From: Acidobacteriota bacterium | GTDB lineage: Bacteria; Actinomycetota; Acidimicrobiia; ATN3 | Length of the DNA: 36,959 nucleotides | Direction: 5' to 3' | Assembly (NCBI GenBank): GCA_003577105.1 | Contig: QEUQ01000041.1 | Coordinates: 1-36,959, forward strand | Part shown: positions 3,780 to 30,662 of the stretch, piece after piece | Numbering within the stretch: the stretch's first letter is position 1 | How the letters are laid out: every line of letters starts with the position of its first letter | The notes under the pieces: generated by a model | What the model saw: only the letters and a program-made list of their open reading frames with translations | Database searches by the model: none | Told to the model about the DNA's origin: nothing | Translations under genes and position numbers: made by a program

Positions 3780-4875
3780 CTAGAGGCGAACCCGGTCCGA
3801 AGAAACCACCTGCCGGACGAACGTGGCAATGAAAGTGGTCGGGGATATTGCGCATCATCGGATCAAACCAGTAGCCCTTTTCGCCATAGACCTCGATTGC
3901 CACTGACTCGAGCTTGGCCTTGAGGCGGTCGGCAACCTCATCTGCGGGCATCCCGTGTGAACGCCATACGACCATCGGCGTGTCGCACTGGTCGCACTCG
4001 GCAATCCAACACTCGTCGTCGTCATAGAACCAATGGGTCACCCGTTCTGCCCTACAAAGCAGGCAGTGCGGATCCTTCTCGGCGTCCATTGCCGCGCGCA
4101 TCGCGGCGACCAGCTCAGCCGGGCTTCCATGATCTTCAAGGACCCGCTTTACGATCGCAGAACCCACCACAACTCCATCTGCAACCTGGCACGCCTCGGC
4201 CGCCTGCTCGGGTGTCGAGATTCCCAGCCCGAGCGCGACTACCAAGTTGGTCATTGGTGCGAGCCGGCCCGCAATTGCCGATGCGACTTCGGAGAGCGAG
4301 TCGCGCTCCCCCGTCACGCCAAGTAGGGAGATCGCGTAGACGAAACCGCGTGAGCGCTCACAAACCTCGGCGAGTCGCTCATCTGCTGCGTTCGGCGCGG
4401 CAAGAAGTATCGGCGCAACGCCGACTCCCTTCGCGATCTCCTCCCATTCGCCGGATTCCTCAAGGGGAAGATCCGGAATGATCACGCCGCCCACACCCGA
4501 CTCCGAACAGTCCGAGGCGAAGCGCTCGAGGCCATGGCGAAAGACCGGATTGAAGTAAGTCATGACGGCAACCGGTATGGGCACATCGGCCAGGCGGACA
4601 CATTCCAGTACGTCTGCCGGGGCGGTGCCTGATTGGAGCGCCGCTTCGGATGCTCTTTGAATCACCGGACCGTCCATGACGGGGTCCGAAAACGGAATGC
4701 CAAGTTCGATTAGGTCCGCACCTGCATCGGCCACCTCTCGCATGAGCGCCACGCAGCCTTCGACGCTTGGAAACGCACCAGTGAGATAGGCAATGAGAAC
4801 CTTCCTGCCCGCCGCCTTCTTCTCAAGAAGCGCAGCTTCGAGCTCCCCTCCGGGGCCGCCGAGAACCTCAGCCAT
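3769..4875 (-). CDS. trpA: Tryptophan synthase alpha chain fused to a C-terminal Cys/His-rich HIT-like domain
   Basis: Residues about 10-262 are a complete TrpA TIM barrel, which cleaves indole-3-glycerol phosphate to indole and glyceraldehyde 3-phosphate. The catalytic pair is Glu57 ([11 protein letters not shown]) and Asp68 (V-M-D-G-P), with the same 11-residue spacing as E49/D60 of E. coli. TrpA normally ends near 265-270 residues, but this protein continues to 368. The extension has C271-x2-C274, C294-x2-C297 and an H-F-H-C-H-V run at 347-352. This resembles the Cys pair and His-phi-His-phi-His run of HIT-superfamily proteins and suggests zinc binding. HIT-like is my inference; an unrelated zinc ribbon is possible. 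The start overlaps the trpB stop by 8 nt, implying translational coupling. Confidence 0.93.
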
Positions 4876-6049
4876 CAGTGAGACTCCCCCGATACCCGGC
4901 GATGCTCTGCACGTCCTTGTCTCCCCTACCTGATAGGTTGAGAAGGATCAGCGAGTCAGCAGGGAGCGAAACGGCCTCGCGGGCAACCCAGGCAACCGCA
5001 TGAGCCGACTCCAGCGCGGGAATAATCCCTTCCGTCTTGGCGAGCAGTTCAACGGCATCGAGTGCTTCGGCGTCGGTAGCGGTCGCGTACTCCGCTCTGC
5101 CCGATTCCTTCAGGTAGGCGTGCTCGGGTCCCACCCCCGGGTAGTCAAGCCCGGCGGAGATCGAATGTGCCTCTAGGATCTGACCGAATTCATCTTGAAG
5201 CAGCAAGCTCATCGATCCGTGGAGCACTCCGGGCACTCCCCTGCTCAACGTCGCACCATGCCGGCCAGATTCGATTCCGAGCCCGGCGGCCTCCACGCCG
5301 ACAAGACGAACTCTCGGGTCATCTACGAATCCTCTGAATATCCCCATCGCATTGGACCCCCCGCCCACACAGGCAACGACGACATCGGGCCTGGCATCAC
5401 CAAGCTGTTGGCTGGCCTCACAACCAATTACGGACTGAAGCTCCCTGACCATGAAGGGATACGGGTGCGGCCCCACCACTGAGCCGATGATGTAGTGCGT
5501 CTCGCCAACCGTTGCAACCCAATCCCTGAGCGCTTCGTTTGTGGCGTCCTTCAACGTGCGGCTCCCCGACTCGACGGGGCGAACCTCCGCGCCGAGCAGT
5601 TGCATTCGAAGTACGTTGAGCGACTGGCGAGCAACGTCCTCGGCGCCCATATAGATCGTGCACTCCAGCCCAAAGAGCGCGGCGACCGTAGCTGTGGCCA
5701 CTCCATGCTGGCCGGCACCAGTCTCAGCGATTACCCGGGTCTTTCCCATGCGCACTGCGAGGAGCGCCTGGCCCAGGCAGTTGTTGATCTTGTGAGATCC
5801 GGTGTGGGCCAAGTCTTCTCTCTTCAACAAGATGCGCGGCCCGCCAAGTTCCGCACTCAGCCTCGCCGCCTCGGTCAGTGGCGTTGGGCGACCGGCATAT
5901 GAATGAAGCAGCCCGTCGAGCTCTGCCCTGAATTCCGAATCGGCCCAGCTCTCCTCGAAGGCACTCTCTAGCTCTTCTAGTGCGGGGATGAGCGTCTCAG
6001 GTACAAAGGTTCCCCCGAAGGAGCCGAACCTCCCTCTCGCTGAACTCAC
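4868..6049 (-). CDS. trpB: Tryptophan synthase beta chain, TrpB1 type
   Basis: This PLP enzyme condenses indole, channelled from TrpA, with L-serine to give tryptophan. It has the TrpB1 N-terminus ([12 protein letters not shown]), the PLP-lysine motif H-T-G-S-H-K-I-N-N (K87 from the GTG start), the catalytic glutamate in A-E-T-G-A-G-Q-H-G and the phosphate-binding loop G-G-G-S-N-A-M-G. I chose the GTG at 6049 because it overlaps the trpF TGA in a GTGA junction; a TTG at 6058 would add three residues. Length, about 393 residues, is normal. It sits between trpF and trpA in one minus-strand operon and probably forms the standard alpha2-beta2 complex with the fused TrpA next to it. Confidence 0.96.
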
Positions 6050-6744
6050 AGCAAGCAACGCCCCGGCGGTGGAGCCACCTCCGCGGCCCTCACCGCGCCG
6101 ATGAACTCGGTGATCAGGAAGGGATCCTTGATCCCCGGCTCGCTCTCGACGCCGCTTGAGACATCAACGCCCCACGGCCTCACGCGCTGGACTGCCTCGC
6201 CCACATTGGAGGGTCCTAGGCCACCAGCGAGCACGACCGGAACGACCGCGAGGTGACCGGCAACCGCAGACCAGTCGTAGGTGACGCCGGCACCCGGTTC
6301 ACTGCCGTCATAGAGGACTGCATCAGGAGCTTCGCTCTCGGTCAGGGCCTTGAGGGCTTCAAAGGGTGATGGCTCTACGCCGTGGCGCCCGGCGAGACAC
6401 GCAAATGCAAGCGTTGGGATGATCCGTCGCAGCTCTGCAAACTCGGGCGCGGCACCGTAGAACTGAACTGCCTCGATGCCCGAAGTCATCACTACGTCGG
6501 CGACCTCCGGGGGCTTGATGCCGAGAAAAACGCCTACCGCGGTAACGCGTCTCCCGCGCACGCGCGCCCAGCCACGGGCGACATCGACCAACTCGCGAGC
6601 GCGCTCGGCAGTGATCCTTCGAGGGCTGTCAGCGAAGACGAACCCGACCGCGTCGGCCCCCGCCCCCACGGCAACTTCGACGTCCTCTTCTCTAGTGAGA
6701 CCGCAGATTTTTATCCAAGTTCTTGCTGCGTAGCGTTGCTCCAA
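6046..6744 (-). CDS. trpF: Phosphoribosylanthranilate isomerase
   Basis: TrpF carries out the Amadori rearrangement of phosphoribosylanthranilate to CdRP in tryptophan synthesis. The protein has the family start K-I-C-G-L-T with the general-base cysteine, then [21 protein letters not shown] and the C-terminal phosphate-binding segments L-A-G-G-L and G-V-D-V-S-S-G-V-E. It is 232 residues, slightly longer than typical, with an arginine-rich insertion near residues 57-66. The only usable start is TTG at 6744, directly after a purine-rich AGAGAGG, and a stop lies just upstream in frame. It begins 9 nt after trpB2 ends, and its stop overlaps the trpB1 start. Confidence 0.95.
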
Positions 6745-6753
6745 CCTCTCTGC

Positions 6754-8064
6754 TCACACCTCCGATTCGAGCCGGCCGTTGAGATAGGCGTCGTAGGCGG
6801 CTAGGTCGAAGTCTGCATTGCCCGAAAGGTTGAAGACGATCGTCTCGGCAGAGTTTTCTTCCTTGCAGCGAAGCGCCTCATCAATTGCAGCACGAACTGC
6901 GTGGGCTGATTCGGGTGCGGGAATGTAACCCTCGGTTCTGGCGAATTGAACCGCCGCCTCGAAGACTTTGCCCTGTGGATAGGCGACCGCTTCGAGGTAG
7001 CCGTGCTCAGCAAGGCCGGAGATCAACGGAGAGTCCCCGTGATATCTAAGTCCGCCGGCATGGATCGCCGGAGGGACGAACTCATGACCGAGGGTGTACA
7101 TGCGAAGAAGAGGCGTCATGCCAGCCGTGTCGCCGAAGTCGTAGTCGATCTTGCCTGCCGTAAGGGTCGGACACGAGGCAGGTTCAACTGCGACGAATCG
7201 CAGGCCATCACCGCGTTCGATCTTTTCCTCGAGGAACGGGAATATGAACCCACCGAGATTCGAGCCGCCCCCGCAGCACGCGATCAGCACGTCGGCCTGA
7301 AGCCCTGCCTTCTCGAGCTGCTTTCGAAGTTCGAGACCTTCGACAGTCTGATGCAATAAGACGTGATTGAGAACGGAACCCAGTGAGTACTTGGTGTCTT
7401 CCCGGCCCGCGGCGTCTTCGACAGCTTCAGAGATCGCTATACCAAGAGACCCGGGTGAATCCGGATTGGCATCGAGGATCGCACGACCCGCATTCGTCTC
7501 GGTACTCGGGCTAGGGGTGACAGATGCCCCCCAGGTCTCGATCATGAGTCGGCGGTAGGGCTTTTGCTCGAAGCTCGACTTCACCATGTAGACCTTGCAC
7601 TCGATGTCAAAGAGCGCACAGGCAAACGCGAGGGAGCTTCCCCACTGCCCCGCACCGGTCTCGGTCGCAATCCGTGTGACGCCTTCCTCCTTGTTGTAGA
7701 AGGCCTGCGCAATGGCCGTGTTCGGCTTGTGGCTGCCGGCCGGGCTCACGCCTTCGTACTTGTACCAGATCTGCGCCGGCGTGCCGAGAGCCTTCTCGAG
7801 GCGGGTGGCTCGCTGAAGTGGAGTCGGACGCCAGCGCGCATAGATATCCAAAATCGGGCCAGGAATGTCGATCCACGGGTCGGTCGAGACCTCTTGACCA
7901 ATCAAGCCCATGGGGAACAGCGGCGCGAGATCATCGGGGCCGATCGGCTCACGAGTTCCGGGGTGAAGCGGGGGGTCAGGCGGGAATGGGAGGCGAGGCA
8001 AGATGTTGTACCAAGCCTCTGGCATCTCGCTCTGCTCCAGCGTGACTCTGGTCTGATCGGCCAT
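6754..8064 (-). CDS. trpB2: TrpB2-type tryptophan synthase beta-like PLP enzyme
   Basis: This 436-residue protein belongs to the TrpB2 class, distinguished from TrpB1 by its longer N-terminus ([14 protein letters not shown]) and by inserts around the active site. The PLP lysine is K113 in [10 protein letters not shown], followed by [10 protein letters not shown] and the phosphate loop C-G-G-G-S-N-L-G-G. TrpB2 enzymes make tryptophan from indole and serine, often without a tight TrpA complex, and are thought to salvage free indole or act on O-phosphoserine. A strong GAGGAGG ribosome-binding site precedes the ATG. It lies between trpC and trpF, 9 nt from trpF, so the same operon encodes both TrpB classes. 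Confidence 0.93.
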
Positions 8065-12166: not shown

Positions 12167-13705
12167 TTAGAGGCTGGCTCTGACACTTCCTGCCGGTGGG
12201 TGCGGTGGAATCCAAATGTTGACCTTGGTGCCTTCGTCAGGTGCGCTCTGAATATCGATCGTCCCGCCGAGCGCCCCGACAAGCTGGCTCACTATTGCGA
12301 GGCCAAGGCCAGTACCGACGTTGGACTTGTCAGCACTCCTGCCGACATAGAGACGCTCAAAGATATGGGGCAGGTCATCTGGAGGAATTCCACTGCCGTT
12401 GTCTGCTACTTGAATCCAAGCGCCCGCTGACGCTGGTTCAAGCAATATGGAGATCTCCCCGCCCTCAGGGGTGTGGCGCATCGAATTCTCGAGGAGATTG
12501 CCGACGATCTGGACGATGCGATCACCGTCAGTGGTCAGCACGACCTGCTCACTTGCCTCGATCTTGAGCTGCTGACCGGCTTCAGCAATGCGCGGGCCCC
12601 AGACTTCGCTCATTCCGTTGAGAACCTCGGCCAAGTCGAGGGAGGTGAAGCGGAGCGCGAATTCGCCTGCATCGAGACGGGCCAAGTCCAGGAGGTCACC
12701 CACCAAGCGCTCCAGCCTCGCCGACTCGGAGACAATCACCTCGGCAGCGTGTTGCTCAGCATCTCGGTCAGGGAGTATCCCGTCAGAGAGAGCCTCCCCA
12801 TAGCCTCGGATTGCCGTCAGGGGGGTACGCAAATCATGTGAGACAGCCTCGCGGGGCACAGTTACCCGATGCGAGAAATCTCCCCGGGCCATCGCTCCGG
12901 TGGCGGCAGCCATCTCGTTGAGCGGGCGGTCGAGCCGGCGCGACAACCACAGCGCAATGAGTATCGAAATCACAATTGCAAGCAACGCACCGATGATGAA
13001 TCTCGGCCCGCCAATCAGCGCATCGCCAATGCGAACTTGGCGACCGATGACCACGAGATACGGACCGCGCTCTGTCGAGATTCGCTGAGCGCCAAAACTC
13101 ATAGGGGTGCGTCCCTTACCGCGGTACATCCCGCTTCCCGAGCCATCGGAATTCAGCTTTATGCCGTTGACGAATGCGGGGTCAAAGCTCTTCTCCCCGT
13201 CGGAGCGGGCTAGCACCCACTGCCCGTTTGCGCCGTCAGCCCAGACGGTCGCGGCGTCGAGGCGCCCTGCCGCCTTGATCACTTGCATCGGCAGCGGTGG
13301 GAGCTCGTCGTCTCGGCTGGGGTTCTGCGGCGATCCCGGTCCGCTGGGGTTCTGGCTCTGCCCGCCCCCTGGCCCAACTGGGTTCTGGCTCTGCCCGCCC
13401 CCTGGCCCGCTCGGGCTCTGAGGACTTCTAGGCTGACGACCCTGGAGCGCGTCGCGGTTGATGCGAGTCTCGAGCTCATGACCGAGGGCGCTCGCCTGCT
13501 TCTTGAGTTCTGCCTCGGTTTGTCTGTTGGCGTTCAGCCTGAAGAGCCCCACCGCCAACAAGGCCGTCAGGGTCACGGCAATGACCGCCGACCCGACAAG
13601 AGCGATGAGCAGCCGGCGCCGCATCGAGGTCTTCACCCCGAGCTCTGACAAAGTACGCGCATCCCGCTCAAATGGCGGTGGCGCTAAGTAACGGGCACGC
13701 GTCAC
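12167..13705 (-). CDS. Sensor histidine kinase with low-complexity sensor loop and shortened HAMP/dimerization segment
   Basis: The protein has a transmembrane helix at about 29-55 and an external domain of about 180 residues with a Gly/Pro/Gln repeat (about 99-130). A second membrane helix spans 236-255, followed by a HAMP-like start (R-R-L-D-R-P-L-N-E-M). The phosphoacceptor H290 is in V-S-H-D-L-R-T-P-L. The N box (N-L-L-E-N-S-M-R-H-T, 403-412), G1 (D435-N-G-S-G) and G2 (G-T-G-L-G-L) complete the kinase. Between the HAMP proline P261 and H290 there are 29 residues, versus 71 for the matching pair in the second kinase of this window. The second HAMP helix and the start of the dimerization helix therefore appear missing. 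The GTG start lies 1 nt after the regulator stop; an ATG at 13624 is the alternative. Confidence 0.9.
   Translation of the reverse strand: MTRARYLAPPPFERDARTLSELGVKTSMRRRLLIALVGSAVIAVTLTALLAVGLFRLNANRQTEAELKKQASALGHELETRINRDALQGRQPRSPQSPSGPGGGQSQNPVGPGGGQSQNPSGPGSPQNPSRDDELPPLPMQVIKAAGRLDAATVWADGANGQWVLARSDGEKSFDPAFVNGIKLNSDGSGSGMYRGKGRTPMSFGAQRISTERGPYLVVIGRQVRIGDALIGGPRFIIGALLAIVISILIALWLSRRLDRPLNEMAAATGAMARGDFSHRVTVPREAVSHDLRTPLTAIRGYGEALSDGILPDRDAEQHAAEVIVSESARLERLVGDLLDLARLDAGEFALRFTSLDLAEVLNGMSEVWGPRIAEAGQQLKIEASEQVVLTTDGDRIVQIVGNLLENSMRHTPEGGEISILLEPASAGAWIQVADNGSGIPPDDLPHIFERLYVGRSADKSNVGTGLGLAIVSQLVGALGGTIDIQSAPDEGTKVNIWIPPHPPAGSVRASL
13347..13412 (-). repeat. 33-bp tandem repeat inside the histidine kinase gene
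   Basis: A unit beginning GGGTTCTGGCTCTGCC starts at 13347 and again at 13380, near-perfect over 29 of 33 bp, with degraded partial copies on both sides. It encodes an 11-residue period (S/V-G-P-G-G-G-Q-S-Q-N-P) in the extracytoplasmic loop. Such repeats can change copy number by slippage while staying in frame. Confidence 0.8.
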
Positions 13706-13706
13706 G

Positions 13707-14387
13707 TCACGGCTCTAGCTGATATCCAATTCCCCACTTTGTCCTGATGGGGAAGTCGTCACCGAGCTTCTTGCGGAGCTGGCGAATGTGGGCATCGACG
13801 GTGCGAGTCTCTCCGTAGTACTCGTAGCCCCACACCGCATCCATGATCTGGTCCCGAGTCAGCACGAGGCCCTTGTTTTCGGTCAAGTACCAGAGAAGGT
13901 CGAACTCCTTCGGGGTGAGTGCTATGACCTCTTCGTCGTGGCGGACCTCACGGCGCCCTCTATCGATTGAGCGCCCGGCGATCTCGCGTACTTCGATTGT
14001 CGGCACCGTCTCGGACCGTCGCAGTACCGCCTTTATTCGGGCGAGGAGTTCTCGTGGCGAAAACGGCTTGGTTACGTAGTCGTCAGCCCCGATCTCAAGA
14101 CCGAGCACCTTGTCGATTTCGGAGTCCCGGGCGGTGAGCATGATCACGGGCACTGAGCCGTGCTCACGAATCCGCTTGCAGACTTCGATGCCGTCAATTC
14201 CGGGAAGGCCCACGTCAAGCAAGACCACCCGCGGCCTTACGGCGGCGTACGCCTCAATCGCGTCCTCACCCGTCGCCGTCTTGGTGACCTTGTAGCCCTC
14301 GCGCTCGAGGTAGACCTGAACCAGATCGGCAATGTTTTCTTCATCCTCGACGAGAAGGACGCTGCCCTTTTCCGTTGGGTTGCTCAC
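13707..14387 (-). CDS. OmpR-family response regulator
   Basis: This 226-residue regulator has a receiver domain with acidic residues E14-D15-E16, phosphoacceptor D58 in V-L-L-D-V-G-L-P-G, T85 in M-L-T-A-R-D and K107 in V-T-K-P-F-S. A C-terminal winged-helix domain follows (L-T-P-K-E-F-D-L-L, T-V-D-A-H-I-R-Q-L-R-K-K-L, G-I-G-Y). The GTG start is served by AAGGAG about 8 nt upstream. It is transcribed ahead of the cognate kinase, 1 nt apart. An 11-nt-spaced TTGTAA direct repeat in its upstream region may be its own operator. Confidence 0.96.
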   Translation of the reverse strand: MSNPTEKGSVLLVEDEENIADLVQVYLEREGYKVTKTATGEDAIEAYAAVRPRVVLLDVGLPGIDGIEVCKRIREHGSVPVIMLTARDSEIDKVLGLEIGADDYVTKPFSPRELLARIKAVLRRSETVPTIEVREIAGRSIDRGRREVRHDEEVIALTPKEFDLLWYLTENKGLVLTRDQIMDAVWGYEYYGETRTVDAHIRQLRKKLGDDFPIRTKWGIGYQLEP

Positions 14388-26116: not shown

Positions 26117-26953
26117 CTATTCAAGCCCGATCGCGGCTTCCCAATCAGTGAGAGACAAATCGAGCAGCGAGGAAGGTGGTTGACCATTGGGAATCGCATT
26201 CTTCGCGAGTACCAAGTATGGAGCGCACGTCAGCGCGCATCCGACGTAGCCCTCGGGAATTGCCTCAGTCCGAAAGCCGGCAAAGACCTTCTCGTAACGA
26301 ACACCTTGATCTTCACCGCAGAGGGCAACACTCGTAGCCACATTGCTGAGCATCGTCGAGAGCCGCTCGACAGCCTCGGTCTCTCCAGAAACCTCGAAGT
26401 GACCACAGTCCTCAATGAATAGGCTTGAATCGCGATCGCGATCGGCCGCTATAGCCAGCGCGATTGTGGACCAGACCGTCGTCGGACCTGGCACGGTTGC
26501 AGATTTCGTTGCACAAATCACATGCGCCCCCGGCAGCAGCGGAAAGCGCCTTGACTCGTTCTTACCGAAAAGACGCTCCGCGGCATCAAGCAATGGATCC
26601 ACTGAATAGACGGGCAATGCCTCGCCGAAGTGTTCGGCCGTGAACATCGGCTCCTGAGCTCCGATCGCATCATGACGAGCGATGTCGTACCCCCACACTG
26701 CGCCGTTGAGGCCACAGAACGAAGAGGCAGCAATCATGTTGATCTGCCCGATGTATGCACCGTTGGCCTCAGCTCGATCGTAAGAGACGATTCCTTCGAG
26801 TACGTCGTCGTACTTCTTCTCGACTTTGCCAGTCGACAGAGTCAGCGCCGATATGTAGCCGACCCCGCTGGCTCCGGCGTTGCCATACCCGTCGCAGTAA
26901 TCGTCGAACGGACCTACCGCGCCATCAACGATCGCTCTTCGAGTCAGTTCCAT
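26117..26953 (-). CDS. hdcA: Histidine decarboxylase, pyruvoyl type (proenzyme)
   Basis: The protein converts histidine to histamine and CO2 using a pyruvoyl group made by serinolysis. The sequence follows the Lactobacillus 30a enzyme: D-D-V-L-E-G-I-V-S-Y-D-R-A-E, A-Y-I-G-Q-I-N-M and the cleavage site A-A-S77-S78-F. S78 should become the pyruvoyl residue (Ser82 in the Lactobacillus enzyme). Y58, D59 and E62 match the imidazole-binding Y62, D63 and E66, and E181 in F-I-E-D-C-G matches E197. Length (278) is a little shorter than the roughly 310 of lactobacilli, mainly at the C-terminus. AAGGAG precedes the ATG. Its start overlaps the upstream antiporter gene by 29 nt, so the two are coupled. 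PLP-type enzymes are unrelated. Confidence 0.93.
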   Translation of the reverse strand: MELTRRAIVDGAVGPFDDYCDGYGNAGASGVGYISALTLSTGKVEKKYDDVLEGIVSYDRAEANGAYIGQINMIAASSFCGLNGAVWGYDIARHDAIGAQEPMFTAEHFGEALPVYSVDPLLDAAERLFGKNESRRFPLLPGAHVICATKSATVPGPTTVWSTIALAIAADRDRDSSLFIEDCGHFEVSGETEAVERLSTMLSNVATSVALCGEDQGVRYEKVFAGFRTEAIPEGYVGCALTCAPYLVLAKNAIPNGQPPSSLLDLSLTDWEAAIGLE

Positions 26954-28436
26954 TTCCGTCTCCTTGTTCCGGCGCTTCAGTCTCGGCCGTGTTGCGCTCC
27001 CCTATGCGCCCGCGCGCGACCGCCATGAATATGAAGGGCGGCACAGACATTGCAAGAATCCCGCCACTCAGAAGAGTTACGTAGATCACTGGATTTCCAA
27101 TGCTGACCTGCGAAGGTGGCACGAAGCCTATGAAGAACGTGAATAGGGATGCCCCGATGCCGGCCCCGGCGACCACCCACATGCCGACCAAACCGCCCGG
27201 GACTCTGTAGGGGCGTTTGATCTCCCGACGCGAATAGCGAAGCCTGATTGCGGCGCCGAAAAGAAGCAGATACATCAAGACCGTTAGCTGAGCCGTGAGG
27301 GCCGAAAGTGCCCAATAAGAACTACTGACCGACGGCATGATCAGAAACACAAGCGACAGCACGCTGACGACGCAAGCCTGTGAAATCAAGACGCTCACCG
27401 GAGCGGCCTGCCGGTTTGTGCGTGTAAACACTTTGGGCATCACTCCGCTCTTGGCCGCCGCGAGGATTCCCTTTGACGGCCCGATAATCCAGGTGCTGAT
27501 TTGAGCGAGCGCGCCAATCGCAACCATCGCTGCCATCGGCTTGACTGCCCATCCCATATGGAACTTCTCGAAGAAGACCTCAAAGCCCTGCATTAGCCCC
27601 GCAACCAGACTTATCTCGGTAGCCGGGACCACCACGGCAATCGCAAGGGATCCGATTATGAAGACGGCCAGTATCAACAGAGTCGTCAGCAGGATCGCCT
27701 TTGGGTAGTCGCGCTGGGGGTTCTTCGCTTCGTTTGCATGAAAGGCAGACATCTCCATGCCCGCAAGCCCCAGAATCACCCCGGCAAAAAAGGAGAGGTT
27801 GTCGAGCTCGAAGCCCGGAATGATCGTCGAAGGACTCCACGACATGGCCGACGAGTTACCACCAGCAACCCAGATAACTCCGAGTGCGATTATCAGCGCA
27901 CCCGGAATGAGTGTCCCGGCTATCGATCCGAACGATGAGATGAATCCCGACGCCCTCATGCCGAAGAAGTTGAGCAGGGTCGAACCCCAGAAGACAGCTA
28001 GCACGACCGCGATTGTGTAGAGCTTGTTCTCCGCGAGTCCCGGATTGATGACATATGCCGCCGTGGCCGACAAGAAGCTGAGTGCAGTCGGATTCCAAAC
28101 CACGTTCTGGATCCACTCGAACCAGACTGCCAAGAACGCATATCTCGGACCGAAAGCTTCTTCGACCCAGACATAGAGACCGCCGTTCTTCGGCCAGGTT
28201 GTTGCAAGCTCTGCCGCAACGAGCGAGACGGGTATGAAAAAGAGCAACCCAGCCATGCCGTTGAAGAAAATGGATGCGAGTCCATACTCGGCCGTCAGCG
28301 GAAGGTTCCTGAGGCTGACGATTGCAGCGAAGCTGATCATGGCGAGCGTGAAGACGCCAAGAACCCGCTTTGGCTGGATTCCCTCTGCCTCCGACGGATC
28401 GGGAGTCGCGGAGGTGACAGGATCGATCGGACTCAA
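26925..28436 (-). CDS. APC-superfamily amino acid antiporter (likely histidine/histamine exchanger)
   Basis: This 503-residue protein has about 12 membrane helices. It starts with the APC first-helix pattern (L-A-M-I-S-F-A-A-I-V-S-L-R-N-L-P) and has P-K-N-G-G-L-Y-V-W-V-E-E-A-F-G-P-R. G-L-A-G-M-E-M-S-A-F-H-A-N-E and a W-I-I-G-P-S-K-G segment resemble the glutamate:GABA antiporter (GadC) group, which includes HdcP and TyrP. Next to pyruvoyl histidine decarboxylase, import of histidine and export of histamine is the natural inference. Such exchange consumes a cytoplasmic proton and can support acid tolerance or a proton motive force. The start is TTG with GGGGG upstream. The C-terminal tail is acidic and polar. 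The gene order is antiporter then decarboxylase. Confidence 0.88.
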   Translation of the reverse strand: MSPIDPVTSATPDPSEAEGIQPKRVLGVFTLAMISFAAIVSLRNLPLTAEYGLASIFFNGMAGLLFFIPVSLVAAELATTWPKNGGLYVWVEEAFGPRYAFLAVWFEWIQNVVWNPTALSFLSATAAYVINPGLAENKLYTIAVVLAVFWGSTLLNFFGMRASGFISSFGSIAGTLIPGALIIALGVIWVAGGNSSAMSWSPSTIIPGFELDNLSFFAGVILGLAGMEMSAFHANEAKNPQRDYPKAILLTTLLILAVFIIGSLAIAVVVPATEISLVAGLMQGFEVFFEKFHMGWAVKPMAAMVAIGALAQISTWIIGPSKGILAAAKSGVMPKVFTRTNRQAAPVSVLISQACVVSVLSLVFLIMPSVSSSYWALSALTAQLTVLMYLLLFGAAIRLRYSRREIKRPYRVPGGLVGMWVVAGAGIGASLFTFFIGFVPPSQVSIGNPVIYVTLLSGGILAMSVPPFIFMAVARGRIGERNTAETEAPEQGDGNGTDSKSDR

Positions 28437-28709
28437 ATTCCCCCGGCCTCTACTACATGGGTGTCTAGGTTTGTGTGTGAGGTCTGCTTTCGGTAGTTGA
28501 GTTCTCGGCCCCGTCTGACCGCTTCTTTACTGATTCTCTCTGCGCAGCCGATCCCAATGGAGATGCGGCAATCAATCGTGGCCGCTGCTGCGGCAGACCA
28601 GTTGAATCGTGTTGGGGGGCGCCGGCCTGCATCACGGTGGCCGAGCGGTTGCTCCCTCTCATGTGCGAGTCTGACCAAGCACCACGAGCTTCAGGGGGAG
28701 CCGCAAGAC
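28437..28709. other. Divergent spacer between antiporter and glycoside hydrolase genes
   Basis: About 270 nt that probably hold promoters for both directions. The plus-strand frame is open from a TTG at 28497, but the encoded segment looks unlike protein of this family and has no ribosome-binding site. I saw no clear operator, riboswitch or terminator. Confidence 0.5.
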
Positions 28710-30662
28710 GTGAGCATTCACCTACACGCCAACGCACCCGGGCCGGTCCGCCATGGTGCCCACCGGCTCGCCGATTACACGGGGCTGACCATCGGCGACG
28801 GTGATACCCGCGATTCAAGAATCATCGCTGAACTCAACTCGTCCATGGACCCCGAAATCGGTCATCAGGGGTACATGATCACCGGCGGTGTTTCCGAACC
28901 TGGGAGAGCCGCGGACATCGCAATCAAGGCCAACCACGACGAAGGCCTTGCCAACGGCATCTACACGTTGCTACGCATCCTCATTATCAATCAGTCCCGA
29001 GACCCCTTCAGCTTGAAGTGGGACATCTGCGAGCGGCCCCACTTTCCAATCCGGGCGATGCTTATCGCCCCTTACCGATTCGGCGGTTCATTTGGTCTTG
29101 CAGCCATGAGTCCGGACCGCTGGTCAATCGAGGAGTGGCGGGAGTACGTCGATCTCATGCGACTCTGCAACATGACGACGCTCACCATGGGTTCTGCCCG
29201 CATGTACCACCCGCAATACCCCCACAGCGAGCGCGAGAAGTGGCGCTACGAGACCTGGAAAGAGGTCATGGACTACTGCCACCAAGTTGGCATGCGTTTC
29301 AACTGGTTCACAGCTCCCAATATTGTTTGCGAACAGGCATTTTGGGACAACCCCGATCTCAGGGCCGACTCGGCAAAGGCGAACTGGTACGGCAATTCGC
29401 TCGTTTGGTCGAAGGCCAAGGAGCTCATTCTTGAAAATCAGCGATTCGGTCTCGAGTTCTTTGCCGGTCTTGACGGTCTAGAGCTGATCTTCACCGACGG
29501 CGGATCGATCTCATTTGATCCCGAAACTGGCGCCGATCCCGCCGCGTACTTCGCTGACGCGACTAGGAGCTACATCGACTTGATGCGCGAGGCCGGCAAC
29601 GACGCTGACTTCGTCTTCTGGAACTGGGGCTTAGATGTCTGGGCCAAAGTGCTGATTCCGCCCGACGAGACCGAAAGGTACCCAAAGTACGCAACGATGC
29701 AAGACGACATTGTCGGGCTGCTACCAAAGAACGTTGCCTGGCTCGATGCTTCAATGCTCACCTGGATCCAGTGCTACGCGCCGTTCATCAAGGCGAGAGG
29801 CAATCCTGCGCTGCGCGAACACATCTTGTTTGGGCGTGAGCACGGCTTCGAACCGGTGATCGACTTCTTCTGGTGCATGAATCCCGAGTTCTCCATAAAC
29901 ATGCTCCCCCACCCAAGCGTCGGACGCGGTATCCAGGAGGCTCATTACGCACGAGACGAGCTCAGATCTGATGGCGTAATGGGTTATCGCCTCGCCCCGG
30001 CATGCCGCTTCGCAGACGACTACATCTTTTTCAGGCTCGCTTCGGATCCAGGGATGGGTGAAAACCAGCTGATCAACGAGGCCGCCACACTCTTGTGCTC
30101 AGATTTTGGCAAGGCTCGCCAGATCAAGGCGAGCACCGCCGAAACGGTCAAGTCCGTCGAAGACGCGATACACAGACTCGAGCGATTCTGGACCACCCAT
30201 GAACTTGACGATATTGATGCATCCGCAGCCGGCTTTGCTGCCAGCGGGGCTGATGCTCCAACTCACCTCGAATTCACCCGAGACGCCGCAGTGGTCCTTT
30301 CATATGTCGCACGACTTGCAGCATTGAGACGCGATGGCGACGAGCTCGAGTACGAGCGGATCAGTTACGAGCTATATGAAAAGGCCAAGGACATGTACGT
30401 CTTCCAGGGCCTTGTCGCCGACATCGTCTGCGTGGCCGACGCGATTCCAAACTTCATGTTTCGTCTTGGCCGCATGGTCGAGGAGTACGCCACACCACTA
30501 ATGCGTGATGCGCCTTTCCCCGAATACGTGGACCGGCGGATCTACCCCGAGGCGAGTTTCGAGCCGAGGATTCTCGACTTCGCCGCCTCAGATCAGAACT
30601 ACAACCTCAACCCAGCCGAGGTCATCAAGATGGCTCGAATCGCCTCAATGAAACGAGATTAG
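28710..30662 (+). CDS. Glycoside hydrolase-like protein (GH20/GH67-type N-domain and TIM barrel)
   Basis: The 650-residue protein begins with a small alpha/beta domain (about 1-95: A-H-R-L-A-D-Y-T-G-L, G-Y-M-I-T-G, L-A-N-G-I-Y-T-L-L-R) like those that precede GH20, GH67 and GH84 catalytic barrels. The barrel follows from about 105 (R-P-H-F-P-I-R-A-M-L, W-R-E-Y-V-D-L-M-R-L-C-N-M, Y-C-H-Q-V-G-M-R-F-N-W, F-T-D-G-G, F-W-N-W-G-L-D-V-W). A helical C-terminus completes it. No signal peptide is seen, suggesting a cytoplasmic enzyme acting on imported sugars. The catalytic acids and family cannot be fixed by eye. GTG at 28710 was chosen because GGGGGAG lies upstream and homology-like sequence starts there; an ATG at 28557 is possible. 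Confidence 0.65.
   Translation: MSIHLHANAPGPVRHGAHRLADYTGLTIGDGDTRDSRIIAELNSSMDPEIGHQGYMITGGVSEPGRAADIAIKANHDEGLANGIYTLLRILIINQSRDPFSLKWDICERPHFPIRAMLIAPYRFGGSFGLAAMSPDRWSIEEWREYVDLMRLCNMTTLTMGSARMYHPQYPHSEREKWRYETWKEVMDYCHQVGMRFNWFTAPNIVCEQAFWDNPDLRADSAKANWYGNSLVWSKAKELILENQRFGLEFFAGLDGLELIFTDGGSISFDPETGADPAAYFADATRSYIDLMREAGNDADFVFWNWGLDVWAKVLIPPDETERYPKYATMQDDIVGLLPKNVAWLDASMLTWIQCYAPFIKARGNPALREHILFGREHGFEPVIDFFWCMNPEFSINMLPHPSVGRGIQEAHYARDELRSDGVMGYRLAPACRFADDYIFFRLASDPGMGENQLINEAATLLCSDFGKARQIKASTAETVKSVEDAIHRLERFWTTHELDDIDASAAGFAASGADAPTHLEFTRDAAVVLSYVARLAALRRDGDELEYERISYELYEKAKDMYVFQGLVADIVCVADAIPNFMFRLGRMVEEYATPLMRDAPFPEYVDRRIYPEASFEPRILDFAASDQNYNLNPAEVIKMARIASMKRD

Follow-up and report, generated by a model that had tools for sequence, protein, structure and literature searches.

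An apparently private in-frame deletion between HAMP and the phospho-acceptor helix that may uncouple a two-component histidine kinase from its sensor

A histidine kinase gene in a draft genome of the class Acidimicrobiia (assembly GCA_003577105.1, contig QEUQ01000041.1) carries, as assembled, a deletion between its HAMP region and its phospho-acceptor histidine. What is observed directly is that the assembly has this deletion, that the catalytic motifs of the kinase are intact and that the orthologues examined have the full linker. The explanation that we favor, and regard as probable with only moderate assurance, is that a lineage-private, in-frame loss of 87 nt has uncoupled the sensor from the catalytic core, leaving a kinase that is blind to its signal. 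Positions refer to the whole stretch of 36,959 nucleotides (hereafter, the window), and the features on which the argument depends are as follows.

12167..13705, minus strand: sensor histidine kinase, 512 aa (translation, Pfam, hydropathy)
12170..12529, minus strand: HATPase_c region, residues 393-512, with N, G1, F and G2 boxes intact (translation, Pfam)
12836..12838, minus strand: codon of the phospho-acceptor His290, in the H box SHDLRTPL (translation)
12842..12854, minus strand: deletion junction between ..RVTVPRE and AVSHDL.., most likely at ~12847/12848, with 87 nt / 29 aa missing relative to orthologues (alignments)
12923..12925, minus strand: codon of the HAMP Pro261, with HAMP helix 1 present (translation, Pfam)
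13707..14387, minus strand: cognate OmpR-type response regulator (Response_reg and Trans_reg_C), directly upstream of the kinase (Pfam)

The kinase is organized in the order TM1, extracytoplasmic sensor region, TM2, HAMP helix 1, HisKA and HATPase_c, with two hydrophobic segments (hydropathy maxima that begin around residues 32 and 236) flanking the sensor region. Both catalytic domains are well represented: HisKA, with its phospho-acceptor histidine, scores 64.7 bits over profile positions 8-66 of 66, and the ATP-binding HATPase_c domain scores 99.6 bits over positions 2-109 of 111. The initial annotation had described all catalytic boxes as intact, and the N, G1, F and G2 boxes are indeed present, at residues 403, 435, 448 and 464. 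The HAMP match extends only over profile positions 1-33 of 53 and is followed directly by HisKA, which begins at profile position 8; this partial match, together with the absence of helix 2 in alignments, indicates that the kinase does not have a complete two-helix amphipathic HAMP domain. Within the extracytoplasmic region, two tandem 33-nt repeats (13347-13412, minus strand) that are 88% identical encode a Gly/Pro/Gln-rich stretch (GPGGGQSQNP..), which the same-order orthologue does not have.

Gene order and sequence identity place the kinase in a conserved OmpR-type two-component operon. The response regulator is intact, and a single base separates its stop codon from the start of the kinase. 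In four other genomes, a regulator orthologue with 62-64% identity immediately precedes a kinase gene. In the one belonging to the same order, the only such genome among those compared and the best basis for comparison, the top regulator match (62% identity) stands far above the next and has the kinase directly behind it, and the same regulator-kinase order recurs in the other three (62-64%).

The anomaly was first noted as a spacing of 29 residues between the HAMP proline and the active histidine, as opposed to 71 in the second kinase of the window, and counting in both proteins confirmed these values (Pro261 to His290 in the shorter one). The loss of about 40 residues, or about 120 bp, that the initial annotation derived from this comparison is too large because an unrelated kinase had served as the ruler: the second kinase belongs to another subfamily with a longer, MprB-like linker between HAMP and the dimerization domain, as in the kinases L072-L074 and L081 from other genomes, and was rejected as a measure of the missing length. 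When the same columns were counted on an alignment with 27 class relatives that have a full linker, the spacing was 58-61 residues in 25 of them, with 66 in the MprB-like L046 and 80 in L028. The same-order orthologue aligns with the kinase over its whole length, interrupted only by one gap, of exactly 29 residues, at RVTVPRE/AVSHDL. Together, this gap and the spacing in the relatives set the loss at 29 residues (87 nt). The interval 12836-12868 to which the loss had originally been assigned does cover the histidine and the 10 residues before it, and the junction itself falls near 12847/12848. The alignments and the structure model support the view that the missing part comprises the DExG/AFNxMA segment that forms HAMP helix 2, then the linker, and then the opening turns of dimerization helix 1 to about H-4, much as the initial annotation had proposed in describing an in-frame loss of the second HAMP helix, the linker and the start of the dimerization helix. 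In all orthologues examined, a comparison also proposed there, the linker is of full length.

To describe how widely the short form occurs, genomes were searched with patterns of two kinds. A degenerate pattern that places the H box a short way behind HAMP helix 1 (18-48 nt separating the Arg codon from the His codon) was found in none of 395 genomes of the class, and the control pattern with normal spacing was found in 11 of 119 class genomes. It should be noted that the short-spacing pattern fixes some codons and would miss the kinase at 12167-13705 itself, so that this search is a partial census. With the exact spacing of the kinase and free codons, its own genome was the only one recovered among 296 genomes of the phylum. 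Several BLAST matches elsewhere seemed to span the junction; 20 such regions were read, and since the HAMP kinases in them all have the full linker, the matches are attributed to sloppy extension. One scan of a wider set of genome contigs for close relatives returned only distant kinases. As far as can be seen from the genomes searched, the deletion thus appears to be private to one genome.

Privacy of this kind is also what would be expected if the 87 nt were present in the organism, or in its main strain, and had been lost in assembly or in the joining of strain variants. The sole carrier is a single draft assembly of 104 contigs, and none of the searched relatives shares the deletion. Against such an artefact, which we consider unlikely although it is the most serious competitor, the loss preserves the reading frame exactly, and that frame stays open. 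No direct repeat flanks the junction, and a repeat-mediated collapse was rejected on this ground; the finding applies to long direct repeats, as a short microhomology lost together with the deleted copy would escape notice. Neither a second copy of the gene nor a contig end bearing the missing part was found in the genome; one candidate, L015, a kinase truncated by the end of its contig, proved to be a different kinase of the PAS/GAF type. In addition, Pfam matches to the window's other conserved genes extend across almost the whole of each model. If the deletion were nevertheless a product of assembly, it would provide a useful warning about inferring domain losses from draft genomes.

If the deletion is real, its probable consequence can be read from the way in which the remaining parts are joined. 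TM helix 2 and HAMP helix 1 would now be connected to the H box by a short proline-containing loop. A two-helix HAMP bundle could not form and no continuous helix would be left from the membrane to the phospho-acceptor, and for these reasons the catalytic core is probably cut off from the sensor. AlphaFold models of both window kinases, built alike as monomers from a shallow alignment of 13 sequences, are consistent with this picture. In the shortened kinase, one helix runs from the membrane through HAMP helix 1 (model residues 10-49), a low-confidence break follows at 50-60 (kinase residues 274-284), and the dimerization helix (61-86) begins only 5 residues before His66, so that this shallow monomer model lacks the unbroken helix that would lead from HAMP helix 2 to dimerization helix 1. 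The model of the second kinase has a single unbroken helix at 67-122, running from HAMP helix 2 past His105 and beginning 38 residues before the histidine. Confidence around the junction is low, with block means of 41-50 pLDDT.

The shortening of the dimerization helix raises the further question of whether the core is active at all. The gene could be a pseudogene in the making, in which a dimerization helix deprived of its N-terminal turns renders the core inactive and the gene is decaying: the loss to about H-4 removes residues that orthologues conserve as R/E-x-F-L, and Pro284 now stands 6 residues before the histidine. We regard this as improbable, in that the remainder of the 512 codons outside the shortened region contains no stop, frameshift or damaged motif and the response regulator is intact. 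Several solved DHp-CA chains (e.g., 6dk8, 7zp0, 3jz3) likewise have, by their coordinates, only some 5-8 residues ahead of the VSH motif, and a kinase core without a long N-terminal extension can therefore probably still fold. The same intact frame and motifs would also suit a working kinase with a new coupling geometry, its phospho-acceptor helix being driven by HAMP helix 1 without an intermediary, and the existence of HAMP-less kinases such as AgrC, BvgS, DesK and DctB indicates that a kinase can in principle do without HAMP (review PMC8199190). The initial annotation had raised such a geometry, and the present data lend it no support: the short spacing was found in none of the relatives searched, and the model places a low-confidence loop with a proline where the helix should be. 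We judge this geometry to be more improbable still than incipient decay, and least probable of all is its strongest form, a natural, fixed kinase with next to nothing between HAMP helix 1 and the phospho-acceptor helix that still signals without HAMP helix 2 or linker.

Uncoupling of sensor and core, the interpretation preferred here, is best appreciated by comparison with characterized kinases. CpxA, PhoQ and BaeS, which have the architecture HAMP-HisKA-HATPase_c and OmpR-type regulators, share with our kinase the domain order, the catalytic boxes and the operon of response regulator and kinase, but they retain the stretch from HAMP helix 2 through the linker to the start of dimerization helix 1, which it lacks. 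Insertion of Gly7 into the same three proteins breaks the helical connection between HAMP and autokinase (PMC8719878), as the deletion would do here; the difference is that the present case is a natural deletion, which also costs part of the dimerization helix. AgrC, BvgS, DesK and DctB (PMC8199190) resemble our kinase in having no complete HAMP between membrane and dimerization domain. Going by their description, they are set apart from it by the HAMP helix 1 that it keeps and by its shortened phospho-acceptor helix, and it looks more like a HAMP kinase from which a segment has been deleted.

The suggestion in the initial annotation that the enzyme is signal-blind and locked on or off is plausible and in line with published work on HAMP uncoupling. 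In PhoQ, CpxA and BaeS, the autokinase disconnected from HAMP is highly active, with HAMP acting as its repressor (PMC8719878). In HitS, 14 of 17 selected HAMP point mutations gave an OFF kinase (PMC7790381). Because part of the dimerization helix is gone as well, the direction of any effect on basal activity is not predictable. If real, the deletion would parallel in nature what has been engineered in HAMP-uncoupled kinases, and the kinase would reveal how a two-component system behaves once the sensor is disconnected and the kinase core and regulator are kept. We would like to emphasize that the claim is modest: the protein would be an ordinary two-component kinase set apart by a private deletion, and HAMP-less and HAMP-uncoupled kinases are already known.

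Other genes of the window are of separate interest. A 721-codon open frame (28497-30662, plus strand) has no Pfam match at E <= 0.001. Within a trp cluster, two genes for PALP-fold proteins (4868-6058 and 6754-8064, minus strand) flank the PRAI gene, with trpA, PRAI and IGPS as neighbors, and the second of the two might encode a second TrpB-like protein. Finally, a gene for a pyruvoyl-type histidine decarboxylase (Pfam HDC, 269.6 bits) adjoins an amino acid permease gene at 26117-28436 (minus strand), and the two possibly constitute a histidine/histamine exchange pair.
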